Assembly (NCBI RefSeq): GCF_009707705.1
Contig: NZ_WLYX01000001.1
Span: 1,116,001 to 1,180,000 of the forward strand
Direction: 5' to 3'
From: Paludibacterium denitrificans
Lineage (GTDB): Bacteria > Pseudomonadota > Gammaproteobacteria > Burkholderiales > Chromobacteriaceae
DNA length: 64,000 nt
In this document: positions 30,857 to 50,322 of the stretch, one piece after another
How the letters are laid out: every line of letters begins with the position of its first letter
How positions within the stretch are numbered: the first letter of the stretch is position 1
Notes under the pieces: model-generated
Told to the model about the DNA's origin: nothing
What the model saw: the letters and a program-made list of their open reading frames with translations, nothing else
Database searches by the model: none
Program-made: the position numbers and the translations under genes

Positions 30857-33119
<2,263 letters not shown>

Positions 33120-47878: not shown

Positions 47879-48093
47879 GCACACTCTCCACAGTTAAAGC
47901 AGGGTTCTAGTGCATTCTACCCGCGCCCATTGCGCTTGAAAGCATCACACCAGCCCGCTCTGTACGATTGGTTACAATGATTTACATTGTTCTCACAGAC
48001 GATTCAGTGGCCTCACTCCTAATATGCTCGCCAAGGAAGCACCAGTGCGGTGCTCCAGTTAACTGTACGTTAAAATTTCTAGGAGTCTCACTC

Positions 48094-48672
48094 ATGAAAA
48101 AAATCGCCGCTCTGCTGGTTGCTACCGTATTTGGTCTGACCTCTGCTGCTGGTTTCGCTGCTGAAGCTTCCGCTCCGGCTGCTAAGGCTGCCAAAGCTGC
48201 TCCGGCTAAAGCCAAGCACCACGCTAAAAAACACAAGAAAGTAGCTAAGAAAGCTGCTTCCGCTCCGGCCGCTCAAAAAGCTCAAGCTGCCAAGAAAGCT
48301 GCTAAAAAGAAAGCCGCTTCCGCTCCGGCACAAAAAGCTCAAGCCGCTAAGAAGAAAGTAGCTAAAAAAGCTGCTTCCGCTCCGGCACAAAAGGCTCAAG
48401 CTGCTAAAAAGCACAAAAAAGCCAAGAAAGCCGCTTCCGCTCCGGCCGCTCAAAAAGCACAAGCCGCTAAGAAAGCCGCTAAGAAAGCCGCTTCCGCTCC
48501 GGCACAAAAAGCTCAAGCTGCTAAGAAAGCCGCTAAAAAAGCCGCTTCCGCTCCGGCCGCTCAAAAAGCACAAGCCGCTAAGAAAGTAGCTAAGAAAGCC
48601 GCTTCTGCTCCGGCACAAAAAGCTCAAGCTGCTAAGAAAGCCGCTAAAAAAGCCGCTTCCGCTGCTAAGTAA
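48094..48672 (+). CDS. exported lysine/alanine-rich repeat protein, histone H1-like
   Basis: 192 residues from the ATG at 48094 behind AGGAG. A signal peptide (MKKIAALLVATVFGLTSAAG, cleavage near FAA-EA) is followed by about 165 residues made only of Ala, Lys, Ser, Pro, Gln and a few Val/His, as repeats of a unit like KKAASAPAQKAQAA. The composition is that of H1-like nucleoid proteins such as AlgP/Hc1, but those lack a signal peptide. An exported, strongly basic repeat protein could bind DNA or polyanions at the envelope; this is inference. A UUCG-loop terminator follows. Confidence 0.8.
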   Translation: MKKIAALLVATVFGLTSAAGFAAEASAPAAKAAKAAPAKAKHHAKKHKKVAKKAASAPAAQKAQAAKKAAKKKAASAPAQKAQAAKKKVAKKAASAPAQKAQAAKKHKKAKKAASAPAAQKAQAAKKAAKKAASAPAQKAQAAKKAAKKAASAPAAQKAQAAKKVAKKAASAPAQKAQAAKKAAKKAASAAK

Positions 48673-48701
48673 TTCCCTCGCAGGTTAACCTGCTACGGAT
48701 C

Positions 48702-48731
48702 AAAAAGAGGAGACTTCGGTCTCCTCTTTTT
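48702..48731 (+). terminator. terminator of the Lys/Ala repeat gene
   Basis: AAAAAGAGGAGAC (48702-48714), a TTCG loop and GTCTCCTCTTTTT (48719-48731): a perfect 13-bp stem with a stable tetraloop and T tail. Confidence 0.92.
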
Positions 48732-49220
48732 GTTTGTTGCACCCGCATCAACTCCGTCCTGAGCTCCACCATACCCATCACCACCCGTTGCACAGCCCCC
48801 TCAACGGCGGCATGCGCGGGAATGACAACCATGGGCCCACAACCCTGAACCCAACAGCTATGGCACATGGCAACAGCCAGACGACCAAGCACCACCTCTG
48901 GTGTAAGCTGGTGCCACCAGCCGAAACCACAGAATAAAGAATTGACCACGCCCCGCAAACGGACACAGCTCTGTCTAGTAGCTTGGCACAGCAGCGGCAG
49001 CTGTTCGAGCACTCGGCGCACCCAAAGGTATTCGACCAGACACATCGCATTGCCTGCAGCCCGCCCCAGACTATGGCCGAGGCCCAGTAAAAGCCTTGGG
49101 GATTACAGAAACGGAACTTCCACTCCTTCACGCTTCGTGCCTGCTTAATAGGTAGTCCAGAGCGCATGGAGAGAGGCCTTATCCGCGCAAGGGCATGGCC
49201 ACCCCATAGACAATGCCCCA
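48732..49220. other. 489-base region without a clear gene
   Basis: The longest gap in the window. Minus-strand frames (for example 48665-49045, beginning MCLVEYLWVRRVLEQLP) are open but overlap the terminator at 48702 and have no recognisable family. Codon use looks atypical, with many Cys and Trp. If a frame error lies near 49065-49155, a single hypothetical protein of about 160 residues starting near 49160 is possible. No repeat or tRNA is seen. Confidence 0.4.
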
Positions 49221-50141: not shown

Positions 50142-50217
50142 TGGTGGGTCGGGCGAGATTCGAACTCGCGACCAACGGATTAAAAGTCCGCTGCTCTACC
50201 AGCTGAGCTACCGACCC
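50142..50217 (-). tRNA. tRNA-Lys(TTT), copy 1
   Basis: Acceptor GGGTCGG pairs with CCGACCC, the anticodon arm CGGACTTTTAATCCG carries TTT, the T arm is GCGAGTTCGAATCTCGC and CCA is encoded. Identical to the copy 29 bases upstream in transcription order. Confidence 0.97.
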
Positions 50218-50246
50218 TTAACCTTGCAAGCAGGTTTGGGTTCTCG

Positions 50247-50322
50247 TGGTGGGTCGGGCGAGATTCGAACTCGCGACCAACGGATTAAAAGTCCGCTGCT
50301 CTACCAGCTGAGCTACCGACCC
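50247..50322 (-). tRNA. tRNA-Lys(TTT), copy 2
   Basis: Identical sequence to the tRNA at 50142-50217; the two form a tandem transcription unit that ends at the terminator at 50100-50129. Confidence 0.97.

Follow-up and report, generated by a model that had tools for sequence, protein, structure and literature searches.

An asr gene of Paludibacterium denitrificans encodes an exported lysine-rich acid-shock protein behind a conserved RstA-type box

The window, a 64,000-nt stretch of the Paludibacterium denitrificans genome, carries on its + strand a coding sequence at 48094..48672 (192 aa, ATG start, TAA stop) that translation and family models identify as asr. The protein opens with a predicted signal peptide, MKKIAALLVATVFGLTSAAGFA (48094..48159, + strand), and its N-terminus, as translated from 48094-48672, reads MKKIAALLVATVFGLTSAAGFA followed directly by AEAS. 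The signal was judged to be of the Sec type by inspection and pattern, and the cut before AEAS was placed by rule. The mature part of 170 aa contains 80 Ala, 50 Lys and 1 Glu and has a net charge of +49. Lys/Ala/Gln repeats follow the signal peptide, with seven units of ASAPA(A)QKAQAAKK spread over residues 55-182 (48256..48639, + strand), each bearing the core QKAQAAKK; at the DNA level, TRF detected a 57/111-bp array at 48235-48663 with scores of 487/588. An RBS, AGGAG, lies 8 nt ahead of the ATG (48081..48085, + strand), and a strong intrinsic terminator, whose 14-bp stem is capped by a UUCG loop, follows the gene (48701..48732, + strand). The fold z-score of the segment 48670-48745 was -6.2, and 0/200 shuffles were equally stable. 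The original prediction of a Lys/Ala repeat protein with a signal peptide, a strong RBS and a UUCG terminator was thus borne out, and its view of the gene as a strong expression cassette for an exported polycation is supported by the sequence.

It had also been considered that the real start might lie downstream of the signal-like segment. This was unsupported: the MKK start has its RBS, and a signal of the window type, 21-22 aa long, was present in 40/40 of the asr proteins kept for comparison, a set whose filter demanded a signal and removed one fragment (L033). An alternative in-frame TTG at 47968 would give a 234-aa product. The MKK start is preferred because the RBS is present there and because it is conserved in relatives.

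A Pfam search of the window protein returned PF06392 (Asr) with an E-value of 6.3e-19 and 68.8 bits against a cut-off of 24.9. The NCBIfam model NF033636, 'acid resistance repetitive basic protein Asr', matched with 71.5 bits against a cut-off of 50 (E 9.6e-20). Since low-complexity proteins can give false scores, a shuffle control was made in which the signal was retained and the mature part shuffled in 6 ways (4 by residue, 2 by three-residue block). None of the 6 shuffled versions matched PF06392 or any other Pfam family at E<=10, and the native protein again scored 68.8. Asr of E. coli K-12 (b1597, NP_416114.2) scored 47.8 bits on PF06392 and resembles the window Asr in its signal type, its QKAQAAKK core and its strongly basic, low-complexity mature part. 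The two differ in size and composition: E. coli Asr has 102 aa, 2 cores and 8 His in its mature part, compared to 192 aa, 7 cores and 4 His in the window Asr. Collectively, these results identify the window gene as asr, encoding an exported lysine-rich acid-shock protein. A search of PDB sequences with the window protein gave 0 matches at 0.001. AlphaFold, run without an alignment, predicted helices of moderate confidence and no tertiary fold (mean pLDDT 70, pTM 0.19), and the modelled helices would fit a chain that is flexible or turns helical under some conditions. The disorder that we assign to the window Asr therefore rests on its composition and on the absence of a tertiary fold rather than on low pLDDT.

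Upstream of asr, a motif scan and upstream alignment revealed a triple 10-bp direct repeat, TACG-N6-TACA-N6-TACA (47963..47986, + strand). It comprises an RstA-type box TACA-N6-TACA, TACAATGATTTACA (47973-47986, + strand), which begins 121 nt 5' of the asr ATG, and an extra TACG 10 bp 5' of that box. The RstA box of E. coli asr, TACATATCGTTACA, is at -117, compared to -121 for the window box. In PMC4117788, the RstA box is described as tandem TACA sites with the consensus TACATNTNGTTACA, in the classic form TACA-N6-TACA. According to PMC11135836, RstA contacts the asr promoter via the box and no longer binds once the box is deleted or scrambled, and asr requires rstAB for its induction by acid. 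For the TTACA-N5-TTACA form, shuffling predicts 0.00 occurrences within the window; a second occurrence, at 31066-31080 on the - strand, lies within a ruvC-like coding stretch and was discarded. An aligned block, CTAAGATG/CTAATATG, in 22 upstream regions suggests a putative -10 element, TAATAT (48020..48025, + strand), 33 nt 3' of the box. A sigma-70 consensus scan found no promoter at the window asr, which would fit an activator-dependent promoter.

To compare promoters, we used 41 distinct motif-bearing proteins, with identical proteins counted once, from which the signal-less fragment L033 was dropped. The resulting set of 40 includes E. coli and one partly masked entry (L025); the window-genome sisters L111 and L068 and five further reading frames lacking a Met start were left out. 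Within the 160-nt upstream regions, the strict box was present in 22/40 and the relaxed box in 38/40, against means of 0.12 and 0.45, respectively, in 200 dinucleotide shuffles of the same regions; as the 40 promoters share descent, these counts measure conservation and not independent events. On the opposite strand of the 40 regions the box count was 0. When the spacing was varied, the strict box was found in 22/40 regions at N6 and in 0-1/40 at N2-N5 and N7-N15. The reversed-text control gave 11-12/40 and is not clean, because the conserved ACAT cores match backwards as well.

The window genome also encodes the putative regulator. rstA and rstB lie side by side at G000:C3:945519-947383, ~217 kb from the window asr, with identities to E. 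coli of 61-71% for rstA, in two frames owing to a frameshift, and 45% for rstB. They are followed by an asr copy (L068) and then by a ydgD homologue (39%, 7e-45), the gene of a YdgD-like protease. A second rstAB-like pair in the genome is less similar (51% and 37%). From the 61 family genomes, 56 rstA loci were collected; G038 (no match at 1e-40) and G048, G050, G051 and G058 (46-48% matches only) were left out. A script placed rstB after rstA in 56/56 loci, and an exported Lys/Ala/His-rich reading frame was found 3' of rstB in 49/56, one of which is the frameshifted L068. In the other 7/56 loci an asr-like reading frame was missing by our rule: one is masked (L154), two look degraded (L125, L128) and four have none (L145-L148). 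The 200 nt that follow the rstB match contain the relaxed box in 50/56 loci and the strict box in 25/56, compared to 0.0071 and 0.0007 per 200 nt, respectively, elsewhere in the same loci. A YdgD homologue was found downstream in 35 of the 49 loci with >1.5 kb of downstream sequence. In seven assemblies (L116, L118, L120, L127, L130, L139, L141) the contig breaks off within the asr repeats, ~0.37-0.64 kb past the rstB match. Public genomes may contain more repetitive asr genes than are counted in them.

The same gene order was seen outside the family. In Pectobacterium versatile, rstA, rstB, an asr match and ydgD occur in that order within one 6-kb stretch, and matches to rstB and asr share one stretch with ydgD in each of Serratia sp. 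M24T3, Pantoea sp. 1.19 and Erwinia rhapontici. In E. coli, by comparison, asr is followed by ydgU-ydgD and rstAB is ~10 kb away. The recurrence of this order across genomes supports the view that rstA-rstB-asr-ydgD is probably an old module. The rstAB-linked asr genes of Chromobacterium and relatives (e.g. L165, L166) have the repeat unit and promoter box of the window gene; they differ from the unlinked window copy in lying directly 3' of rstB and ahead of ydgD. We give even chances to a joint reading in which rstA-rstB-asr-ydgD would be an old acid-response module of Beta- and Gammaproteobacteria, and the RstA of the Chromobacterium family would drive several dispersed asr copies via a three-part TAC repeat, as opposed to the two-part E. 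coli box. The copies would trade repeat number, which may tune how much envelope protein is protected per copy.

Four asr copies are present in the window genome: the window gene, L046 (near C3 1813643, frameshifted), L111 (near C3 2205500, 109 aa) and the rstAB-linked, frameshifted L068. The relaxed box is found at 4/4 copies and the strict box at 3/4; L111 fell below Pfam detection at 0.001. The window asr is flanked by HIT-family and MgtC-family genes, with neither rstAB nor ydgD alongside; the ydgD neighbourhood, a usual context that does not define the family, is absent here and present at L068. At five further loci (L073, L074, L075, L088, L091), asr and a HIT-family gene are divergently oriented and ~1.6-1.8 kb apart, with an intervening gene in the three relatives' loci that have listed reading frames; the HIT-asr gap in the window is ~210 nt. 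The window asr corresponds to a second conserved, HIT-linked site. Among the relatives checked, the HIT-linked asr is short and His-rich, and in Chromobacterium genomes such as G018 and G020 the rstAB-linked asr is long. The window genome is reversed, with a long HIT-linked and a short rstAB-linked asr. Short copies of the HIT-linked type (L007, L008, L016-L019, L021 and similar) have 14-17 His per 57-76 mature residues. Such His-rich short copies could titrate near pH 6 and act as an acid-responsive part.

The exact core motif QKAQAAKK occurs in 27/61 family genomes, where the reversed pattern, used as a control, always gave 0, and a six-frame Pfam search recovered asr in just 7/61; the genus of the window has one member only among these 61. 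Order-wide, the exact motif was found in 4/399 genomes, a count of exact motifs and no measure of asr absence in the order. The matches were in G000 and G024, both of the window's own family, and at L097 and L098, which by eye are unrelated proteins (an Rrf2-like regulator and a PAS-sensor protein). The number of QKAQ motifs ranges from 1 to 11 across the 40 kept proteins and reaches 13 in rstAB-linked loci. Behind a conserved promoter there is thus a natural Asr series of about 1 to 13 QKAQ motifs, which could reveal what the repeats do; the single short E. coli protein is insufficient for this alone. Besides rstA (G000:C3:945519-947383) and the asr copies L068 and L046, the ruvC-like gene of the window (~31380-30900, - strand) is frameshifted, and more window genes look split. 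These frameshifts, together with a completeness of 80.6%, suggest a long-read assembly with indel errors.

E. coli K-12 Asr is annotated as 'periplasmic chaperone Asr'. PMC10746267 describes it as an intrinsically disordered chaperone, up ~1,000-fold at pH 4.4, that contributes to outer-membrane integrity, and PMC10595154 gives a 622-fold acid induction of asr and a mutant that grows differently at pH 5.8. By analogy, we infer that the window protein has the same role. Acid would activate the RstB-RstA two-component system, and RstA would act on the tandem TAC repeats at 47963-47986 to raise transcription from a promoter near 48020. Asr would then be exported to the periplasm, where its Lys/Ala/Gln low-complexity repeats would bind envelope proteins or the outer membrane and shield them in acid. 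The window Asr is thus most likely a secreted envelope chaperone for acid stress, cationic and of low complexity, whose gene is activated by RstAB. We are highly confident in the combined reading of an RstAB-activated asr whose exported product would shield the envelope under acid stress. It builds on established family membership, an export-type signal, the position and conservation of the box, the presence of rstAB and the linkage of sister copies to rstAB and ydgD; that RstA binds, that acid induces the gene and that the window Asr acts as a chaperone in the periplasm is expected from work in E. coli.

Different roles for such a polycation can be envisaged. Bacterial histone H1-like proteins have Lys/Ala-rich, low-complexity repeats in common with the window Asr, and we considered whether it is a nucleoid protein of this kind with an incidental signal-like N-terminus. 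Histone H1-like proteins are cytosolic and not known to be exported, while a signal-type N-terminus is present in 40/40 kept relatives, E. coli included. To our knowledge H1-like proteins also lack the Asr-specific core QKAQAAKK, and PF06392 was the sole family reported for the window protein, with no H1-type Pfam family at E<=10. We therefore give this possibility practically no weight. A DNA-binding protein that is exported and aids transformation would likewise be a polycation with a predicted export signal; we regard this as highly improbable, since the promoter and the gene cluster indicate an acid response. The Neisseria-type uptake sequence GCCGTCTGAA has 0 matches in the window, which is weak evidence on competence. 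The histone H1 or extracellular DNA-binding interpretation first proposed for this gene, like the accompanying idea of a role in DNA uptake, is unsupported, given the Asr family models and their shuffles, the RstA-box-like promoter and the rstAB-asr-ydgD sisters. In place of a secreted histone, the Asr reading is concrete and testable.

Two further alternatives leave the family assignment intact. The tandem TAC repeats might be bound by an OmpR/PhoB-family regulator other than the RstA orthologue, as the genome encodes several OmpR-type regulators, including the second RstA-like protein (51%). Such a paralogue could act at the box in place of the RstA orthologue; we nevertheless consider a different regulator unlikely, given that the motif fits the RstA box of PMC4117788 and occurs just after rstB in 50/56 rstAB loci. 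The other alternative, a form of which accompanied the original prediction, is an acid-controlled, exported polycation that forms a coat on the cell surface, over LPS or further anionic polymers, and reinforces the outer membrane with no true chaperone activity. A net charge of +49 with 1 acidic residue in 170 would suit such a coat, as would the aid to outer-membrane integrity that PMC10746267 assigns to E. coli Asr. The same source characterises the activity of Asr as chaperone-like, and the window sequence has no visible surface anchor. Coating without chaperoning is in our view possible but the lesser prospect, and the two are not fully exclusive.

As an asr, the gene is ordinary in kind and well explained, with a modest regulatory extension. 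The occurrence of asr in this group is already published: it is listed for Laribacter hongkongensis and Chromobacterium violaceum in Table 8 of a 2011 genome paper (PMC3135505). Among the open-access papers listed for these subjects we found no report of the RstA box or the rstAB-asr-ydgD linkage in this family, and these may be unreported. Two neighbouring features of the window were also recorded. An MgtC-family gene (PF02308; 49221-49967, - strand) is convergent to asr, a pairing that may be due to chance; low Mg2+ and acid stress are conditions with which MgtC is often associated. Beyond it, two tRNA-Lys (ttt) genes lie 29 nt apart at 50142-50322.
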